Below are positions 48,741-63,911 of a stretch of 64,000 bases of DNA, piece after piece. The notes under the pieces were generated by a model that saw nothing but the letters and a program-made list of their open reading frames with translations, made no database searches and was not told where the DNA came from. The DNA is taken from assembly GCF_025165815.1 (NCBI RefSeq), contig NZ_JAFFZE010000015.1, positions 124,001 through 188,000 of the forward strand, in the 5' to 3' direction. The stretch is from Actinophytocola gossypii. GTDB taxonomy: Bacteria; Actinomycetota; Actinomycetes; Mycobacteriales; Pseudonocardiaceae. The translations under genes and the position numbers were made by a program. The first letter of the stretch is position 1; every line of letters begins with the position of its first letter.

Positions 48741-49110
48741 GGGCGGTGACCTCCTCGTCACGCTCGGGCAGGGGTTCCGAGTGCCCGCGAACGGGCCGCA
48801 GATATTGCCGCGTGTTATGGAAGCGCTCTCACGCCTGATTGTCAACAGGTCGTCAGGTTGGACAGGGCTTCCCTCAGGGCCTCGGTCGGTTACCCTGATC
48901 CCGGGCAAACCCGGCGCCGACGGTCCTCACCAGGGCGAACGGCGTCTATCGCGTGGATCACGCAAATCGTTACTTCCGACGCGGAAAATCCATGCTCGAT
49001 GCGTAGCTCACGGGTTTCGGGACTGTTAAGCTCGCGTCAACATGCGGGCCACCGCCGTCCCGCGCCCAGGTACCACCACTGAGCGCGAGGACGACGAGGG
49101 AGGTCGACGC
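48741..49110. other. 370-bp divergent non-coding region (GH16 / gltB)
   Basis: The left part holds the GH16 leader, operator and promoter. From about 48850 to 49110 is the gltB leader. It contains CCCGGG and a GTTACCCTGATCCCGGG stretch but no convincing GlnR site, riboswitch or small gene. TAAGCT at 49027-49032 may be a gltB -10 box. The frame upstream of the gltB GTG is open from 49042 but lacks a ribosome site. Confidence 0.5.
48818..48845 (-). promoter_or_regulatory. Promoter and CebR-type operator of the GH16 gene
   Basis: TGGAAGCGCTCTCA (48818-48831) matches the ceb operator with one half-site change. Minus-strand TTGACA lies directly upstream (48840-48845), so the operator fills the spacer of the promoter. 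A repressor bound here would compete with RNA polymerase. Confidence 0.75.
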
Positions 49111-52100
49111 GTGATTTTTTCTGCCATTCCCACCGCGCAGGGTCTCTACGACCCCAGTGCCGAGCGTGATGCGTGTGGCGTGGCCATGGTCGCCGACATT
49201 CAGGGCCGCCGGTCCCACGGGATCGTCAACGACGCCCTGGTCGCGCTGGCCAACCTCGAACACCGCGGCGCAGCGGGCGCCGAGCCGACCAGCGGCGACG
49301 GGGCCGGCATCCTGCTCCAGCTCCCGGACGCCCTGCTCCGCGACGTCGTCGACTTCGACCTGCCGGCTCCCGACGAGCGGGGTCGGCACACCTACGCCAC
49401 CGGCCTGGCGTTCCTGCCCCGCGACCCAGAGGAGCGGGGAAACGCGGTCGCGATGATCGAGCGCATCGCCGCCGAGGAAGGCCTCGACCTGCTCGGCTGG
49501 CGGGACGTCCCGATCGCGCCGGAGGCCGCCGGGGTCGGCCCGACCGCGCTGTCGGTGATGCCGCACTTCTCGATGCCGTTCCTCGCCGCGCACGCCGACG
49601 CCGGCGGCCGCCGGCCGGCCGGGGTCGCGCTCGACCGGCTGACCTTCTGCCTGCGCAAGCGTGCCGAGCACGAGAGCGTCGCCGCCGGCTGCGGGGTCTA
49701 CTTCCCCTCGCTGTCCGCGCGCACCATGGTCTACAAGGGAATGTTGACCACCGCGCAGCTGCCGGTGTTCTTCGCCGACCTCACCGACGAGCGGCTGGCC
49801 AGCGCGATCGCCCTGGTGCACAGCCGGTTCTCCACCAACACGTTCCCGTCCTGGCCGCTCGCGCACCCGTTCCGGTTCGTCGCGCACAACGGCGAGATCA
49901 ACACGATCCGCGGCAACCGCAACCGGATGCGCGCCCGCGAGGCACTGCTGGCCAGCGACCTCGTCCCGGGCGACCTCACTCGCCTGTACCCGGTCTGCGA
50001 CCCGGACGGTTCCGACTCCGCCTCGTTCGACGAGGTGCTCGAACTGCTCCACCTCGGCGGCCGGTCGCTGCCGCACGCGGTGCTGATGATGATCCCCGAG
50101 GCGTGGGAGAACAACACCACGATGGACCCGCGCCGGCGGGCCTTCTACCAGTTCCACTCCAGCCTGATGGAGCCGTGGGACGGCCCGGCCAGCGTGACGT
50201 TCTCCGACGGCACGCTCGTCGGCGCGGTGCTCGACCGCAACGGCCTGCGCCCAGCGCGCTGGTGGCGCACCACCGACGACCGCGTGGTGTTCGCCAGCGA
50301 GACCGGCGTGCTGGACCTGCCGCCGGAGCGGGTGGTGGCCAAGGGCCGCCTGCAGCCGGGCCGGATGTTCCTGGTGGACACCGAGGCGGGCGTGATCGTC
50401 GACGACGACGAGATCAAGACCGCGTTGGCCGAGGAGCACCCGTACGAGGAGTGGCTGCACGCCGGCCTGCTCAAGATCGCCGACCTGCCCGACCGCGAGC
50501 ACGTGGTGCAGACCAACGAGTCCGTGCTGCGCCGCCAGCTCTCCTTCGGCTACACCGAGGAGGAGCTCAAGATCCTGCTCGCGCCGATGGCGCTGACCGG
50601 CGCGGAGCCGATCGGCTCGATGGGCAGCGACACCCCGCCGGCCGCGCTGTCCCAGCGTTCCCGGCTGCTCTACGACTACTTCAAGCAGAACTTCGCCCAG
50701 GTGACCAACCCGCCGCTGGACGCGATCCGCGAGGAGATCGTCACCTCGGTGCAGCGCATCATGGGCCCAGAGCAGAACCTGCTCGACCCCGGTCCCGCGT
50801 CCTGCCGGCACATCCAGCTGCCGTACCCGGTCATCGACAACGACGAGCTGGCCAAGCTCATCCACGTCAACGACGACGGCGACATGCCCGGCTACGCCTG
50901 CACCGTCCTCTCCGGACTGTACGAAGTGGATGGTGACGGCGACGCGCTGGTGACGGCGATCGCACGGGTGCGCCGGGAGGCGTCCGAGGCGATCGCCGCC
51001 GGCGCGCGGATCCTGGTGCTGTCCGACCGGGACTCCGACCACCGGATGGCGCCGATCCCGTCGTTGCTGCTGGTCGCGGCGGTGCACCACCACCTGGTGC
51101 GCACCAAGGAGCGGCTGCGGGTCGCGCTCGTGGTCGAGACCGGCGACGCGCGCGAGGTGCACCACATCGCCCTGCTGCTCGGCTACGGCGCCGCGGCCGT
51201 CAACCCCTACCTGGCGTTCGAGACGATCGAGAACCAGATCCGCCGCGGCACCATCACCGGCATCGAGCCGGCCCAGGCGATCCGCAACTACGTCACCGCG
51301 CTGGTCAAGGGCGTCCTCAAGATCATGTCCAAGATGGGCATCTCGACCGTCGGCGCCTACACCGCGGCCCAGGTGTTCGAGGCGTTCGGGCTCGCCGGCG
51401 ACGTGCTGGACGAGTACTTCACCGGCACCAGCTCCAAGCTCGGCGGCGTCGGCCTCGACGTGATCGCCGAGGAGGTCGCCGCGCGCCACCGCCGCGCCTA
51501 CCCGGAGAACCCGACCGACCGGGTGCACCGGCGGCTGGAGTCCGGCGGCGAGTACGCCTTCCGTCGCGACGGCGAGCTGCACCTGTTCACCCCGGAGACC
51601 GTCTTCCTGTTACAGCACGCGACGAAGACCCGCCGCGAGGACGTCTACCGGTCCTATGTGGACGAGGTGGAGCGGCTCAACCGCGAGGGCGGTGCGCTGC
51701 GCGGGCTGTTCAAGCTCCGCAAGGAGGGTCGCACCCCGGTTCCGCTGGACGAGGTTGAGCCGGTCGAGTCGATCCTGACCAGGTTCAACACCGGCGCCAT
51801 GTCCTACGGCTCGATCAGCGCCGAGGCGCACGAGACCCTGGCCATCGCGATGAACCGGATCGGCGGCCGGTCCAACACGGGCGAGGGCGGCGAGGACACC
51901 GACCGCCTCTACGACCCGGAGCGGCGCTCGGCCATCAAGCAGATCGCCAGCGGCCGGTTCGGCGTCACCAGCGAGTACCTGGTGAACGCGAGCGACCTGC
52001 AGATCAAGATGGCGCAGGGCGCGAAGCCGGGGGAGGGCGGCCAGCTGCCACCGAACAAGGTGTGGCCGTGGATCGCCCGCACCCGGCACTCGACGGCGGG

Positions 52101-53683
52101 CGTCGGCCTGATCTCCCCGCCGCCGCACCACGACATCTACTCCATCGAGGACCTCGCGCAGCTCATCCACGACCTCAAGAACGCCAACGAGCACGCCCGC
52201 GTGCACGTGAAACTGGTCAGCGAGCTCGGCGTCGGCACGGTCGCGGCCGGGGTGTCCAAGGCGCACGCGGACGTGGTGCTGATCTCCGGGCACGACGGCG
52301 GCACCGGCGCCTCGCCGCTGAACTCGCTCAAGCACGCCGGCACGCCGTGGGAGGTCGGCCTCGCCGAGACCCAGCAGACGCTGCTGCTCAACGGCCTGCG
52401 CGACCGGATCACCGTGCAGGTGGACGGTGCGATGAAGACCGGGCGGGACGTGGTGGTCGCCGCGCTGCTCGGCGCCGAGGAGTACGGCTTCGCCACCGCG
52501 CCGCTGATCGTCGCCGGTTGCGTGATGATGCGGGTGTGCCACCTGGACACCTGCCCGGTCGGCGTCGCAACCCAGAACCCGACCCTGCGCGAGCGGTACA
52601 CCGGGCAGGCCGAGCACGTGGTCAACTTCTTCCACTTCGTCGCCAACGAGGTGCGGGAGATGTTGGCGGAGCTGGGTTTCCGCACCATGGACGAGGCGAT
52701 CGGCCACGCCGAGCTGCTCGACGTCGACGACGCGGTCGAGCACTGGAAGGCCAAGGGGCTCGACCTCTCGCCGGTGTTCGCCGTGCCGGAGAGCAGCTAC
52801 GGCGGCGCCCGGCGGCGGGTCCGCGCCCAGGACCACGGCCTGGCCGAGGCGCTGGACCGCACGCTGATCCAGCTCGCCGAGGCGTCGCTGGAGGACGCGC
52901 ACCCGATCCGGCTGGAACTGCCGGTGCGCAACGTGAACCGCACCGTCGGCACGCTGCTCGGCTCGGAGGTCACCCGCCGCTACGGCGGCGACGGCCTGCC
53001 GGACGACACGATCCACATCGGACTCCAGGGCTCGGCCGGCCAGTCGCTCGGCGCGTTCCTGCCGGCGGGCATCACCATCGACCTGGTCGGCGACGCCAAC
53101 GACTACGTCGGCAAGGGCCTGTCCGGCGGCCGGATCGTGGTCCGCCCGCACCCGGACGCGGCGTTCGCGGCCGAGCAGCAGGTGATCGCCGGCAACGTGA
53201 TCGGCTACGGCGCGACCGGCGGTGAGGTCTTCCTCCGCGGCCGGGTCGGGGAACGGTTCTGTGTCAGGAACTCCGGCGCGGTCGCGGTCGCGGAGGGCGT
53301 CGGCGACCACGCGTTCGAGTACATGACCGGCGGCCGCGCGGTGGTGCTCGGACCGACCGGCCGCAACCTCGCGGCCGGCATGTCCGGCGGCATCGCCTAC
53401 GTGCTCGACCTGGACGAGAAGCTGGTCAACCCCGCCATGGTCGACCTGCAGCGCCCGAACGGCGAGGACCTGCGGTGGCTGCGGGAGACCGTCACCCGCC
53501 ACCACGAGCTCACCGGCTCCGCGGTGGCGGCGTCGCTGCTCGGCGACTGGACCCGGCGCGCGGCGTCCTTCACCAAGGTGATGCCGCGCGACTACCAGCG
53601 CGTGCTCGAGGCGATGCGGCTCGCCGCCGCCGAGGGCCGCGACATCGACGAGGCGGTCATGGCGGCCGCGACGGGGGTGGGAC

Positions 53684-53691
<8 letters not shown>
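49111..53691 (+). CDS. gltB: Glutamate synthase, large subunit
   Basis: GltB transfers the amide of glutamine to 2-oxoglutarate. The 1526-residue protein starts with a 21-residue propeptide; Cys22 in [12 protein letters not shown] is the nucleophile exposed after cleavage. The amidotransferase domain is followed by the central domain, the FMN/3Fe-4S synthase domain ([24 protein letters not shown]) and the C-terminal beta-helix (GxxGG repeats such as GLSGGRIVV). The GTG has GGGAGG seven bases upstream. It overlaps gltD. Confidence 0.97.
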
Positions 53692-55198
<1,507 letters not shown>

Positions 55199-56921: not shown

Positions 56922-58415
56922 CTACGGCTCGTGCCGTAACGCATCGGCGAGCCAGTGGGTGAGTCGGGCGGGGTGGTCTCCGCGCCAGGCGAGGTGGGCG
57001 TCCGGGCGGATCAACCACGCGTCGTCTTGCTGCGAGGTGAGGGGCACGACGTCCTCGCCGAGGTGGGCGCGGGCCGCGGCGAGGTGGTCGGCGAAGCCGT
57101 CGGCCGGGGCGAGCAGTGCCCAGCGCGAGCCCAGTTCGGCGTGCAGGCGGGTTCGGGTGCCGTCCGCGCGCACGCAGGTCAGGTCCGGGACGCGATCACC
57201 GGGGCGTGATCCACGGGCCAGGCGCGACCGCGCGCTCCTCGCCAGCGGGCCACGGCGGTAGCTGACCCACAACTGCGACGCGAGGTGGCTGGCCCGCCGC
57301 TGCACGGACGGCAGGGCGGCGGCCGGGATCAACACCCGCCTGCGCAGGAACCGCGTCAGCGGGCCGTCGCCCACCTGCAACCGGGTCGCGGTCGTGGTGT
57401 GGCGGAGCACCTCGGTCGCCAGGGGCCTGCGTTCCGCCTCGTAGGTGTCGAGCAGCGACATCGCCGCGCGGCCGCGGATCACCATGGCCAGCTTCCACGC
57501 CAGGTTCTCCGCGTCACCCATTCCGGTGACCATGCCCTGCCCGCCCAGCGGACTGTGGATGTGCGCGGCGTCGCCGGCGAGGAAGACCCGGCCCCGGCGG
57601 TAGGTGTCGGCCAGCCGGCGGTGCACGCGGAACACCGACGTCCAGACCGCGTCCTCGATCGGGAGGTCGCGCCCGGTCCGCTCGGGCACCAGCCGGCGAA
57701 GGCGATCCAGGACGGCACCCTCGCCGCTCGGACCGCCCGGGTCGTAGGCCATCAGCCGCCAGAGGTCGCCCTCGCGGCCGCCGTCGCGCATCGGTAGGGC
57801 GAACAGCGGGCCGTCCGGGTGCGGCCAGCCGTGCCCGCCCGCGCGGTCGATCGGCCAGGCGGCGTGCACGTCGGCCAGCAGGAACTGCTCGGTGAGGCGA
57901 ACGCCGGGGAACTCGATCCCGGTCAGCTTGCGCACGGTGCTGTGCGCGCCGTCGCAGCCGGCCAGCCAGCGGCAGGTCACGGTGCCGGAACCGAGTACGG
58001 CGGTGACCCCGTCCTCGTCCTGCCGCAGGTCGGTCAGCACGGTGCCCCACTCGACCTCGACACCCGACTCGCGCAGCCGACGCCGCAGGCGCTCCTCGAT
58101 CTCGGCCTGCGAGACGTACAGCGCCGGCCGGGCCGTGCCGAGGCCGTGGTCGCCGAACCGGACCGTGATCGCCGGCCGGCCGTCGAGGTACTGGGTGACG
58201 GTGAGCGCGGTGAGCGCCCGGTCCGGCAGGTCGCCGAGCGCGCCGAGCCGGTCGAGCACCTCGACGCCCCGCGCGTGCAGGATGTTCGCCCGGGAGGTCG
58301 TCGCCGGTCCGGCAGCGCCGTCCACCACTCGCACCGCGACTCCGTGCAGGCGCAGCGCGCAGGCCAGCGTGAGCCCGCTCGGCCCGGCGCCGACCACCAC
58401 GACCTCGGTGTCCAT
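56922..58415 (-). CDS. FAD-dependent aromatic monooxygenase (PheA/TfdB type)
   Basis: A 497-residue flavoprotein hydroxylase. It has the FAD motif VVVGAGPSGLTLACALRLHG, the DG motif WLAGCDGAHSTVRK and the GD motif RVFLAGDAAHIHSPLGGQGM, then the C-terminal thioredoxin-like region. This is the family of polyketide hydroxylases and rifampicin monooxygenase, so a tailoring or detoxifying role is likely. A divergent TetR gene and tandem operators lie upstream, suggesting induction by an aromatic compound. Confidence 0.92.
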   Translation of the reverse strand: MDTEVVVVGAGPSGLTLACALRLHGVAVRVVDGAAGPATTSRANILHARGVEVLDRLGALGDLPDRALTALTVTQYLDGRPAITVRFGDHGLGTARPALYVSQAEIEERLRRRLRESGVEVEWGTVLTDLRQDEDGVTAVLGSGTVTCRWLAGCDGAHSTVRKLTGIEFPGVRLTEQFLLADVHAAWPIDRAGGHGWPHPDGPLFALPMRDGGREGDLWRLMAYDPGGPSGEGAVLDRLRRLVPERTGRDLPIEDAVWTSVFRVHRRLADTYRRGRVFLAGDAAHIHSPLGGQGMVTGMGDAENLAWKLAMVIRGRAAMSLLDTYEAERRPLATEVLRHTTTATRLQVGDGPLTRFLRRRVLIPAAALPSVQRRASHLASQLWVSYRRGPLARSARSRLARGSRPGDRVPDLTCVRADGTRTRLHAELGSRWALLAPADGFADHLAAARAHLGEDVVPLTSQQDDAWLIRPDAHLAWRGDHPARLTHWLADALRHEP

Positions 58416-58501: not shown

Positions 58502-59107
58502 ATGGGCGAAGCGAACCGGCCCCGGCAGGCGCAGCTGCGGGAACACGTCACCGACGCGATCACCTCGGCCGTCGTGGACGAGCTCGTCGAGTCCGGCTTC
58601 GCCCGCATGTCCATGGACGCGGTGGCCCGGCGCGCCCGGGTGGGCAAGGCCGCCATCTACCGTCGCTGGTCGTCCAAGCAGGACATGGTCGAGCACGTCG
58701 TGGCCGAACTGGGGTGGACCAGCGTCCCGGTCCCCGACAACGGCACCCTCGCCGACGACGTCACCGCCTACGTCACCCACGCCACCGCGTTCCGCGAGGA
58801 CCTGCGCGTCACCCGCGTCATCGCCGACCTTGGCGCCGAGGCCATGCGCAACCCCGGGCTCGCCCGGTCCTTCTACGACGCCCTGCGCGAACCCCGGCGC
58901 GCGGCGGGCACCGCGATGCTGCGGAAGGCGATCGAGCGCGGCGAACTGCCCGCCGACCTCGACACCGACCTCGCCCTCGACTGCCTGGTCGGCCTCACCT
59001 ACGCCCGTCCGCAGACCCTCACCGCCTCGGGCGGGCTCGCCGACCCCTATCCCAGCCAACGGCTCGTCGAGGTCATCCTCACCGCGCTCGCCGCCTGCCG
59101 CCGGTGA
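58502..59107 (+). CDS. TetR family transcriptional regulator
   Basis: A 201-residue regulator with helix-turn-helix MDAVARRARVGKAAIYRRWS (about residues 38-57) and a TetR_C-type helical domain. It is divergent from the FAD monooxygenase and next to the two GGAACG-N4-CGTTCC sites, so it probably represses both genes. It ends four bases before the stop of the convergent lyase gene. Confidence 0.92.
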   Translation: MGEANRPRQAQLREHVTDAITSAVVDELVESGFARMSMDAVARRARVGKAAIYRRWSSKQDMVEHVVAELGWTSVPVPDNGTLADDVTAYVTHATAFREDLRVTRVIADLGAEAMRNPGLARSFYDALREPRRAAGTAMLRKAIERGELPADLDTDLALDCLVGLTYARPQTLTASGGLADPYPSQRLVEVILTALAACRR

Positions 59108-59111
59108 CCGG

Positions 59112-60563
59112 TCAGAAGTCGGCGATCGTGTCCAGGAGCGCCGCCGCCGCGTCCAGGTCGGCCGACAGCGGCCGGTCCGCCAGGTCCGGGTCCAGCTCGG
59201 CCTCGGCCACCTCGAACGCCGCCCGGACCGGCAGGTCCATCAGGTCGGCCGGACGCATCCGCAGCGCGCGCACCGCCGCCACCAGCTCACACGCCAGCAC
59301 CTTCCGGTAGGCCGCCGCCGCTTCGGTCGCCTGGCGCGCCGCCTGGGTGGCGAAGCTCGCGTGGTCCTCCACCCCGCGGGACACCACCGCCGTGCCAAGG
59401 GTCACCGGGAGCGCGGCCTGACGCAGCGATGCCAGCGCGTCGTGCGCCACGTACTCGAGGATCATCACCCCCGAGCTCCCGGGCGGGCCGGACGCCAGGA
59501 ACGCCGGCAGATCGGTGAACGACGGCTCCACCAGGTCGCCGAGCCGGGCCGCGGACAGCTCGGCGACGTGGTGGACCGTCGCCCTCGCCTGGTCGAGCGC
59601 CACCGCCACGTACGCGGTGTGGAAGTGCGCGTGGTGGAACACGTCACGGGCCGACAGCGACACCATCGGGTTCTCGGTCGCGGCGTTGATCTCCACCGTG
59701 AGGATCTCCCGCAGGTAGTCGAGCGCGTCCAGCGCCGGGCCCTGGACCTGCGGGAACGCGCGCAGACCGTACGGGTCCTGGATCCGCCTGCCCGGCTTGG
59801 GCAGCCCGGCCATGCCCAGCAGCCGGCGCAGCTCGGCCGCGCACCGGACCTGGCCGGGATGCGGCCGCGCCGCGTGCACGGGCGTCGCGTACGCCTCCGG
59901 CGAGCCACCGAGCACCACGTACGACAACGCCGCCACAACATGGCTCGCCCGCAGCAACCTGTCCAGGTCGAGGGCGGCCAGCACCGCCTCGGCCAGCGTG
60001 GCCGCGTTGCTGCTCATGAACGCCAGCGCGTCGCTGGTGTCCAGCGGCACGGGCGGCAGGCTCCCGCTCAGCCACGGGCGCTCCCCGGACAGCGTCAGCG
60101 CGGTCTCCGCCAGCACGGTCAGGTCGCCGGTGCCGATCGCGCCGGTCCGGTGCACGCGGGGGAGCGCCCCCGACGACAGCGTCGCCGCCAGCGCGGGCAG
60201 CAGGCGCGGGTGCGCGCCGGAACCACCGGCCGCCAGCTGGTTCAGCCGGATCAGCAGCATCGCGCGCACAGTGGGAGCCGGCAGCGGGCCGCCGGTGCCG
60301 CCGGCGTGGCTGCGCAGCAGCCGGTGTCCGTGCTCCGGGCCGGCGTCCTCCTCGACGGTCAGGTCGCGGTTCGCGCCGACGCCGGTCGTGCGGCCGTAGA
60401 TCTCCCGCTCGGCCGACAGCTCGGCGACCAGCCGCCACGCCGCCTCCGCCCGCTCCGCCGCGGCCGGTGCCACCTCCACCGCCACGTCGTGGCCGGCGAC
60501 CAGCGCCACGTCCGCGCACCGCAGCGTCCGGCCGTCCACCACCAGCACGTCCCGCACGGCCAT
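59112..60563 (-). CDS. Aromatic amino acid lyase family protein with altered MIO triad
   Basis: A 483-residue member of the histidine/phenylalanine ammonia-lyase fold. The active-site Tyr56 loop (EIYGRTTGVGAN) and the Asn/Gln-rich core (ENPMVS, with AHFHTAYVA) are present. The usual Ala-Ser-Gly that cyclises to the MIO cofactor is Gly144-Thr145-Gly146 (RTGAIGTGDLTVLAE). Whether Thr can form a methylated MIO here is open. The ATG at 60563 has GGGAGGACG upstream; a longer frame reaches 60644. The substrate is unknown. Confidence 0.85.
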   Translation of the reverse strand: MAVRDVLVVDGRTLRCADVALVAGHDVAVEVAPAAAERAEAAWRLVAELSAEREIYGRTTGVGANRDLTVEEDAGPEHGHRLLRSHAGGTGGPLPAPTVRAMLLIRLNQLAAGGSGAHPRLLPALAATLSSGALPRVHRTGAIGTGDLTVLAETALTLSGERPWLSGSLPPVPLDTSDALAFMSSNAATLAEAVLAALDLDRLLRASHVVAALSYVVLGGSPEAYATPVHAARPHPGQVRCAAELRRLLGMAGLPKPGRRIQDPYGLRAFPQVQGPALDALDYLREILTVEINAATENPMVSLSARDVFHHAHFHTAYVAVALDQARATVHHVAELSAARLGDLVEPSFTDLPAFLASGPPGSSGVMILEYVAHDALASLRQAALPVTLGTAVVSRGVEDHASFATQAARQATEAAAAYRKVLACELVAAVRALRMRPADLMDLPVRAAFEVAEAELDPDLADRPLSADLDAAAALLDTIADF

Positions 60564-60609: not shown

Positions 60610-60695
60610 CCCGGCGTTGCTCTGTCGTTGGTCATCATGACCACCTATCCCCTGCACGGATGACCACGAACGGGTGATCCGAAAGGTAGGTATCC

Positions 60696-61673
60696 ATGAA
60701 GAGTTACTGGCGGTCCGCCGTCACCCTCGCCGCGAGCGGTCTCGCGGTGGCGGCCCTCGCCGCACCGGCGAGCGCCGCACCCGCACCGGCGTCCTCCGTG
60801 GCAGTGCACCACGTCTCGGCCTCCGCCGAGTCGATCGCCGCCAAGTGGACGCCCGAGGCCATGCGCGCCGCGATCCCGCTCGACCGGCTGCTGCCGTCGG
60901 TGGACCCGTCGGCGTTGACCCAGGACGTCCGGCGCGCCGCGCCGCAGGTCGTCGAACCGACCACGTCCTTGCTCAACGACGTGCTGCCGATGGCGTTCCC
61001 CGAGGGCGGCGGTGAGTGGACCGGCGGCGGCGCGGTCGAGTCCACCGCCGGCCGCGTGTTCTTCACCTACGGCGGCCGGCAGGCCTCGTGCAGCGGCAAC
61101 GCGGTGACCAGCGGGAACAAGAGCGTCGTGATGACCGCGGGGCACTGCGTCAAGATGGACGGCGCCTGGCACACCGACTGGGTGTTCGTGCCCGCCTACG
61201 ACAACGGGAACGCCCCGCACGGCACCTGGACCGCGCGCGCCACGCTCGCCACCCCGCAGTGGGAGGCCAGTGAGGACATCAACTACGACGTCGGCGCGGC
61301 CGTGGTGAACCCGCTGGACGGGCAGAGCCTCACCGACGTCGTCGGTGGCCAGGGTGTTGCCTTCAACCAGCCGAAGATCCAGGACATGTACGCGTTCGGC
61401 TGGCCGGCGGCCGACCCGTACGACGGCACCCGGATGATCTACTGCAGCGGTCGCACGTTCAACGCGCTGATCAGCGACGGCATCGGCATGACCTGCGACA
61501 TGACCGGCGGCTCCAGCGGCGGGCCGTGGTTCCAGGAGTTCGACGAGGCCACCGGGGCCGGCATCCAGACCTCGGTGAACAGCTACAAGATCAACTTCGT
61601 TCCGACCTGGATGTTCGGCCCGTACTTCGGCGCCGACGCCCAGGGCGTCTACAACGCCGCGCAGGCGGCCTGA
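60696..61673 (+). CDS. Secreted trypsin-like serine protease
   Basis: A 325-residue exported protease. The signal peptide is about residues 1-28 (AALAAPASAA). A propeptide reaches roughly residue 105. The chymotrypsin-fold triad is His150 (MTAGHCV), Asp198 (NYDVGAAV) and Ser274 (TGGSSGGPW); Cys132 and Cys151 probably form the conserved disulfide. It resembles the V8/glutamyl-endopeptidase-like proteases of actinobacteria. A long hairpin follows the stop. Confidence 0.93.
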   Translation: MKSYWRSAVTLAASGLAVAALAAPASAAPAPASSVAVHHVSASAESIAAKWTPEAMRAAIPLDRLLPSVDPSALTQDVRRAAPQVVEPTTSLLNDVLPMAFPEGGGEWTGGGAVESTAGRVFFTYGGRQASCSGNAVTSGNKSVVMTAGHCVKMDGAWHTDWVFVPAYDNGNAPHGTWTARATLATPQWEASEDINYDVGAAVVNPLDGQSLTDVVGGQGVAFNQPKIQDMYAFGWPAADPYDGTRMIYCSGRTFNALISDGIGMTCDMTGGSSGGPWFQEFDEATGAGIQTSVNSYKINFVPTWMFGPYFGADAQGVYNAAQAA

Positions 61674-62486: not shown

Positions 62487-63911
62487 GTGAGTCGACGAGC
62501 AAAGATTGTATGCACTCTGGGACCGGCGACCGCGACCCCGGAAAAGGTGCGCGAACTGGTCGCGGCCGGCATGGACGTCGCCAGGATGAACTTCAGCCAC
62601 GGCAGCCAGAGCGACCACAAGCAGGTCTACGACCTGGTCCGGGCCGCCTCCGACGAGTCGGGCCGCGCGGTGGGCATCCTGGCCGACCTGCAGGGCCCCA
62701 AGATCCGTCTCGGCACGTTCGCCGGCGGGAAGGTCGACTGGCAGGTCGGTGACGTCGTCCGGATCACCGTCGAGGACGTCGAGGGCACCCACGGGCGCGT
62801 CTCCACCACCTACAAGGGCCTCGCCAGGGACGCGAAGGCTGGCGACCGCCTCCTGGTCGACGACGGCAACGTCGGGCTGACCGTCACCGCGGTCGAGGGG
62901 CCGGACGTGGTCTGCGAGGTCACCGAGGGCGGCAAGGTCAGCAACAACAAGGGCATCTCGCTGCCCGGCATGGACGTGTCGGTGCCGGCGATGTCGGAGA
63001 AGGACATCGAGGACCTGGAGTTCGCGCTCCAACTCGGCGTGGACTTCGTGGCGCTGTCCTTCGTGCGTTCCCCGGCCGACATCGACCTGGTGCACCAGGT
63101 GATGGACCGGGTCGGCAAGGGCAGGCTGCCGGTGATCGCGAAGCTGGAGAAGCCGGAGGCGGTCAGCAACCTCGAGGCGATCGTGCTGGCCTTCGACGGC
63201 GTGATGGTCGCCCGCGGCGACCTGGGTGTCGAGCTGCCCCTCGAGCAGGTCCCGCTGGTGCAGAAGCGGACCATCCAGATCGCGCGGGAGAACGCGAAGC
63301 CGGTGATCGTGGCGACCCAGATGCTGGAGTCCATGATCAACAACTCCCGCCCGACCCGCGCCGAGACCTCCGACGTGGCGAACGCGGTGCTCGACGGCGC
63401 CGACGCGGTGATGCTGTCCGGCGAGACCAGCGTCGGCCGGTACCCGATCGAGACGGTCCAGACGATGAGCCGGATCGTGGAGGCCGTGGAGAGCGAGTCC
63501 ACGGTGGTACCGCCGCTGACCCACGTGCCGCGCACCAAGCGGGGCGTGCTGTCCTACGCGGCGCGCGACATCGGCGAGCGGCTCAACGCCAAGGCCCTGG
63601 TCGCGTTCACCCAGTCGGGGGACACCGTCCGGCGGCTGGCCCGGCTGCACACGCACCTGCCGCTGCTGGCGTTCACCCCGGAGCCCGCCGTCCGCAGTCA
63701 GCTGGCGCTGACCTGGGGCGTGGAGACGTTCATGGTGCCGTCGGTCGACTCGACCGACCTGATGGTGCGCCAGGTGGACACGTCCATGCTCTCGATCGGG
63801 CGATACCAGCCGGGCGATCTGGTGGTCGTGGTCGCCGGGTCCCCGCCCGGCACGGTCGGCTCGACTAACCTCATCCGCGTGCACCGGCTGGGCGAGGAGG
63901 ACCACGCCTGA
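62487..63911 (+). CDS. pyk: Pyruvate kinase
   Basis: Pyruvate kinase converts phosphoenolpyruvate and ADP to pyruvate and ATP. The 474-residue protein has KIVCTLGPAT, MNFSHGS, the active-site IAKLEKPEAVSNLEAI, MVARGDLGVELP, VATQMLESMINNSRPTRAE and the C-terminal regulatory domain. The GTG start lacks a Shine-Dalgarno site and fits a leaderless transcript. A small GAGCC/GGCTC hairpin (63910-63925) follows the stop. Confidence 0.97.
   Translation: MSRRAKIVCTLGPATATPEKVRELVAAGMDVARMNFSHGSQSDHKQVYDLVRAASDESGRAVGILADLQGPKIRLGTFAGGKVDWQVGDVVRITVEDVEGTHGRVSTTYKGLARDAKAGDRLLVDDGNVGLTVTAVEGPDVVCEVTEGGKVSNNKGISLPGMDVSVPAMSEKDIEDLEFALQLGVDFVALSFVRSPADIDLVHQVMDRVGKGRLPVIAKLEKPEAVSNLEAIVLAFDGVMVARGDLGVELPLEQVPLVQKRTIQIARENAKPVIVATQMLESMINNSRPTRAETSDVANAVLDGADAVMLSGETSVGRYPIETVQTMSRIVEAVESESTVVPPLTHVPRTKRGVLSYAARDIGERLNAKALVAFTQSGDTVRRLARLHTHLPLLAFTPEPAVRSQLALTWGVETFMVPSVDSTDLMVRQVDTSMLSIGRYQPGDLVVVVAGSPPGTVGSTNLIRVHRLGEEDHA

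Follow-up and report, generated by a model that had tools for sequence, protein, structure and literature searches.

The protein of 483 residues encoded at positions 59112 to 60563 of the window, meaning here the whole 64,000-nucleotide stretch of Actinophytocola gossypii DNA that was analyzed, belongs to a conserved clade of the aromatic-lyase fold from which the MIO-forming triad has been lost, and it very probably acts independently of MIO. The clade, called here the GTG clade after its Gly-Thr-Gly loop, is the sister of ergothionase, not a group of variant MIO enzymes or of dead genes, and it is probably mis-annotated. With regard to function, an active lyase that releases trimethylamine from an N-methylated histidine, with hercynine or one of its close relatives as the most likely substrate, is an explanation with roughly an even chance of being correct. 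The absence of MIO is well supported; the substrate, the leaving group and the roles of individual residues we infer. The lyase and its diagnostic residues are located as follows.

59112..60563, minus strand: predicted MIO-less aromatic-lyase-fold enzyme, 483 aa (PF00221, conserved clade, dN/dS, AlphaFold2 model)
60396..60398, minus strand: Tyr56, equivalent of HAL Tyr53, the putative catalytic base (alignment; present in 121/123)
60126..60134, minus strand: Gly144-Thr145-Gly146, shortened cofactor loop (translation; one residue shorter than in HAL in 123/123 GTG-type sequences)
60003..60014, minus strand: Ser184-Ser185-Asn186-Ala187 in place of the MIO-supporting HAL Asn195-Gly-Thr (alignment)
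59760..59762, minus strand: Arg268, equivalent of HAL Arg283, putatively facing the substrate carboxylate (alignment; invariant, 123/123)
59367..59369, minus strand: Glu399, equivalent of HAL Glu414, putatively facing the substrate imidazole (alignment; present in 120/123)

The reading frame runs from an ATG at 60563 to a stop codon at 59112. A longer frame could begin upstream at an in-frame GTG codon at 60644; the starts of homologues mostly cluster near the ATG, and the upstream codon appears to be the less likely start. The only Pfam match of the product is Lyase_aromatic (PF00221), which covers nearly its full length (E 2.5e-117; 392.9 bits vs. a curated cut-off of 27.3), and its score with the NCBIfam hutH equivalog model falls far below the cut-off (303.6 vs. 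539.15 bits). Its nearest named homologues, from A. xanthii, A. xinjiangensis, A. algeriensis and A. oryzae, are 81-85% identical. The gene is under purifying selection, with dN/dS between 0.17 and 0.27 in comparisons with congeners and at 0.30 with Labedaea, GC contents of 79, 52 and 96% at the three codon positions, and about 95 near-invariant positions among 41 family homologues, the catalytic residues included. Two further PF00221 reading frames can be mentioned here. A copy in a genome of the same genus (G132, locus L019) is split by a change of frame between its GTGD and EDHAS blocks, which may be an assembly error, and the third PF00221 match of the query's own genome, on another contig (C50, locus L003, 459459-459752), spans about 100 residues of a 314-aa frame and is probably a remnant.

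The cofactor loop is where the protein departs most clearly from histidine ammonia-lyase (HAL). The earlier note had read Gly144-Thr145-Gly146 as standing in place of the MIO-forming Ala-Ser-Gly, and while the three residues are real, the replacement is not one for one: HAL reads G-S-V-G-A-S-G-D-L, the query G-A-I-G-T-G-D-L and ergothionase S-S-I-G-E-G-D-I, so that the query loop equals that of ergothionase in length and is one residue shorter than that of HAL. The Ala/Cys-Ser-Gly triad from which MIO is made is thus absent through a one-residue deletion that leaves Gly-Thr-Gly. Alignment with the wider family, which the same note had proposed, indicates a conserved subfamily: (I/V)GTGD is found in 40 of 41 family homologues (49-100% identity), the single exception reading GTSD. 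In a wider alignment of 123 GTG-type sequences scored against HAL positions, 120 have Thr and two have Ile as the middle residue of the loop, the remaining row (Pro) being a misaligned fragment; at the next position, 118 have Gly, two Ser and two Ala. The Gly-Ile-Gly loops occur in two basal members (L079 and L084), which, judged by their residues, cannot form MIO; L079 retains the transporter neighbors of the clade.

The site that supports MIO in HAL, which the earlier note did not mention, has been lost as well. All 123 GTG-type sequences have Ser at the HAL Asn195 position and the pair Ser-Ser there, and in at least 119 of them Ser-Ser-Asn replaces Asn195-Gly-Thr; Ser also occupies this position in five of seven ergothionase-clade rows. 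The position of HAL Tyr280 is Phe in 93 sequences and Tyr in 27, including the query, and that of Gln413 is hydrophobic. The equivalents of Tyr53, His83, Gln277, Arg283, Phe329 and Glu414 (HAL numbering) are kept, His83 corresponding to His86 of the query, and the earlier statement that the active-site Tyr is retained holds true, Tyr56 being its counterpart. As read from the alignment, the pattern is one in which the cofactor and its supports have been removed and the residues that would bind an imidazole amino acid and handle the beta proton have been retained.

The AlphaFold2 model of the lyase (pLDDT 90.4) has its best fold match in the PDB with ergothionase, the ergothioneine trimethylamine-lyase of Treponema denticola (6s7j; TM 0.91), and HAL is almost equal. 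Ergothionase is reported to lack MIO (PMC13405746, which cites Maurer 2019). The two proteins share the short loop, Ser at the Asn195 position, the conserved Tyr, His, Arg and Glu residues and a common ancestor, yet they are only about 27% identical, the ergothionase loop reads Gly-Glu-Gly instead of Gly-Thr-Gly, and the signatures Arg-Thr-Thr-Gly-Val-Gly-Ala-Asn and Ser-Arg-Gly-x-Glu-Asp set the GTG clade apart. HutH of Pseudomonas putida (1gkm/1b8f) likewise shares the fold and the six conserved equivalents with the query, which differs in lacking Ala-Ser-Gly and Asn195 and in scoring below the hutH cut-off. In a tree rooted on a tyrosine aminomutase outgroup, separate support is obtained for the GTG clade, at 100/100, and for the ergothionase clade, at 90/83, and the two are joined at 100/99 to the exclusion of the MIO-bearing HALs; the joint group is still recovered (100/97) when the tree is repeated without the MIO and NGT columns. 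The query lies outside the clade that contains the characterized ergothionase, and in the simplest history the MIO residue would have been lost once, ahead of the split between the two sister clades. A MIO-independent role, one of the two options offered in the earlier note, is therefore favored by the short loop, the loss of Asn195, the occurrence of Ile for Thr and the ancestry shared with MIO-less ergothionase.

Other lyases with altered loops were encountered alongside the clade. A second short-loop kind, clustered with the GTG lyase in two loci (L046:14259-15779 and L058:306-1853), has a Ser-Ile-Gly-Ala-Ser-Asp loop and Cys-Gly-Ala-Ser for Asn-Gly-Thr, and groups on a long branch with the ergothionase clade. 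A plasmid of Paracoccus saliphilus (L167) carries a short-loop lyase adjoining a complete hut operon with a HutH of its own; unlike the query, it has a Gly-Glu-Ala-Asp loop and belongs to the ergothionase clade. A third HAL-like kind (L045:10432-12246, L140 and L172:3833-5365) lacks a usable triad, reading Gly-Ser-Val-Gly-Tyr-Leu where HAL has Gly-Ser-Val-Gly-Ala-Ser-Gly-Asp-Leu, and its copy on a Klebsiella plasmid (L172) is accompanied by hutC, hutD and genes for a formimidoylglutamate deiminase and an ABC transporter.

The GTG clade is present in 72 of 200 genomes sampled from one family, and 65 of these 72 carriers also encode a protein with a HutH-like PF00221 score. It is rarer in a sample drawn from the whole phylum, where 13 of 396 match at E 1e-60 and one of these 13, L085, is a true HAL. 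When genome contigs were scanned, at least 571 relatives were confirmed, of which the 80 that were kept come from Amycolatopsis, Streptomyces, Pseudonocardia, Saccharothrix, Lentzea, Actinomadura and others. In the open-licence papers searched, no description of the GTG clade or of a hercynine lyase was found, and this large actinobacterial family is seemingly unstudied.

In the window itself, the lyase gene is monocistronic and is surrounded by the following genes.

49042-53691: gltB, inherited chromosomal context together with gltD
53684..55198, plus strand: GltD-like glutamate synthase small subunit (synteny common to 24 loci; inherited context)
56922..58415, minus strand: rifampin-monooxygenase/PRK06184-type FAD-dependent monooxygenase (scores under every named NCBIfam cut-off; not a conserved neighbor of the lyase)
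58502..59107, plus strand: TetR-family regulator, convergent with the lyase, whose stop is 4 bp away (Pfam TetR_N/TetR_C_11; a generic gene with no tie to the lyase in congeners)
60696..61673, plus strand: secreted trypsin-like protease, divergent (weak Trypsin_2 match; cluster c22 in nine loci, synteny of Actinophytocola and Labedaea)
62487..63911, plus strand: pyruvate kinase, pyk (synteny common to 44 loci; inherited context)

As in other Actinophytocola, the lyase sits between gltBD and pyk, an interval in which no pathway gene was found at the query locus, and this setting is inherited synteny that is little informative on function. The earlier suggestion that the lyase, standing beside a monooxygenase and a protease, could belong to an aromatic amino acid pathway is rejected: other Actinophytocola lack the monooxygenase gene next to the lyase, the protease, gltBD and pyk are a matter of synteny, and the functional neighbors of relatives are genes of histidine utilization or ergothioneine synthesis.

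Among relatives, urocanate hydratase (HutU), imidazolonepropionase and formimidoylglutamate deiminase are frequent neighbors. Of 129 loci, 14 encode HutU within 10.5 kb of the lyase; these come from several lineages, and some are redundant copies of one genome. In Actinomycetospora (L150), HutU, HutF and HutI are followed by the lyase on the same strand, and an Arthrobacter plasmid (L170) encodes an ABC transporter, HutU and the lyase one after another, HutF and an M20 amidase being close by. Canonical HutH can also be part of the cluster: one genome (G240, L191) has a run of HutH, ABC transporter, GTG lyase and M20 amidase, and in Actinomadura (L160 and L164) HutH adjoins the lyase cluster. 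Genes for EgtD and EgtB lie within about 10 kb of the lyase in L160, L157 and L165, with EgtC also in L157, a linkage limited to the Actinomadura lineage. All five clade-linked HutU proteins that were scored are urocanate hydratases by NCBIfam models and fall below the thiourocanate-hydratase cut-offs, and the idea that thiourocanate is processed next door was rejected for this reason. The query genome itself encodes EgtD and, on another contig than the lyase, a canonical hut operon comprising HutH (Cys-Ser-Gly), HutU and HutI. In two genomes of one genus (G118 and G042), type III glutamine-synthetase and glutamate-synthase-like genes lie near the lyase; being of the kind used for methylamine, they are suggestive. 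Separately, the GTG lyase repeatedly has a small cysteine-dioxygenase-like protein (CDO_I) for a neighbor (L160:13626-14123, L058:6359-6937 and 11 further loci), usually accompanied by a LacI regulator and an unassigned amidohydrolase-like protein.

The ABC transporter of these clusters belongs to the osmoprotectant/EgtU family (OpuC-like). The aromatic cage of EgtU is formed by Asn339, Tyr341 and Tyr443 (PMC9732360). In the GTG-linked binding proteins that were compared, Tyr341 is replaced by Asp and Tyr443 by Gln or Glu in all except that of L191, which keeps the cage. An OpuC-like transporter is also encoded upstream of the canonical hut operon of the query genome (contig C52, L185:301-2703), where it is possibly a histidine transporter; its binding protein lacks the quaternary-amine cage and has the same type of pocket as the GTG-linked proteins. 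The transporter had been considered as evidence for a betaine or ergothioneine substrate, and this was withdrawn; since the GTG-linked transporter may carry histidine, it is not used in the argument that follows.

The preferred explanation, elimination from a trimethylated histidine, would proceed as follows. Arg268 would hold the carboxylate and Glu399 and His86 the imidazole, and Tyr56 would remove the beta proton. The quaternary ammonium group would already be a good leaving group, making a covalent MIO adduct unneeded. Hercynine (N,N,N-trimethylhistidine) would be converted to urocanate and trimethylamine, with urocanate entering the ordinary Hut pathway; alternatively, a close relative such as ergothioneine would yield thiourocanate and trimethylamine. 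Because a trimethylammonium group can leave without MIO and is unable to form the MIO adduct, a HAL-like pocket devoid of MIO would suit betaines, as it does in ergothionase. The urocanate-hydratase neighbors suggest urocanate as the product and thus hercynine as the substrate, and the presence of canonical HutH in the same cluster (L191, L160 and L164) leads one to expect a different substrate for the GTG enzyme.

An alternative that seems unlikely is that the protein is a MIO-free histidine ammonia-lyase, which would convert histidine, or mono- or dimethyl-histidine, to urocanate in a rearranged active site and substitute for HutH in some strains. In four genomes of one genus (G118, G165, G188 and G199), HutU is present and the GTG lyase is the sole PF00221 protein, the lyase closes the HutU/HutF/HutI run of Actinomycetospora, and the linked transporter has the pocket type of the query's own hut operon. 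On the other hand, most carriers have a HutH-scoring protein as well, canonical HutH can be clustered with the lyase, and one genome (G042) has the lyase with neither HutU nor HutH. Elimination of ammonia from histidine without MIO is, moreover, chemically poor, as is known from HAL mutants. That the clade includes some MIO-free histidine deaminators replacing HutH, for example in Actinomycetospora, is quite unlikely; if true, it would be an exception to the rule that ammonia is expelled by this fold only with the help of MIO. Also unlikely is a MIO-independent lyase or betaine lyase acting on a substrate outside the histidine family, for instance a different trimethylated or activated amino acid: in some branches the lyase is accompanied by an aromatic-acid-type MFS transporter or by no pathway genes, whereas the conservation of His86 and Glu399 and the linkage to hut and Egt genes argue against it.

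The other option of the earlier note, a methyl-substituted MIO formed from Gly-Thr-Gly in a conventional MIO ammonia-lyase, is very unlikely. The conservation of Thr would favor it, but the loop is short by one with a shifted order of residues, Asn195 is lost throughout, the Tyr280 position is mostly Phe, Ile replaces Thr in the two basal members, the third position is Ser or Ala in four sequences and the sister clade is MIO-less. A non-catalytic or decaying paralogue is equally improbable: despite the missing cofactor residues and the frameshifted copy in G132, the dN/dS values, the many near-invariant positions and the repeated linkage to catabolic genes reject a dead gene, and an isolated Gly-Thr-Gly with decay elsewhere in the active site, looked for as its mark, did not occur.

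The database labels HutH and aromatic amino acid ammonia-lyase are probably wrong for this clade. Ergothionase has been judged rare from BLAST searches with the Burkholderia enzyme, in a recent report which concedes that divergent homologues were possibly missed (PMC13405746); the GTG clade, found in more than a third of the genomes sampled from one family, is a candidate set of such homologues. It also provides a natural test of when the aromatic-lyase fold needs its MIO cofactor. Should the enzyme indeed be a betaine lyase, then actinobacteria, themselves producers of hercynine and ergothioneine, would also own a dedicated route for their breakdown to urocanate and trimethylamine.
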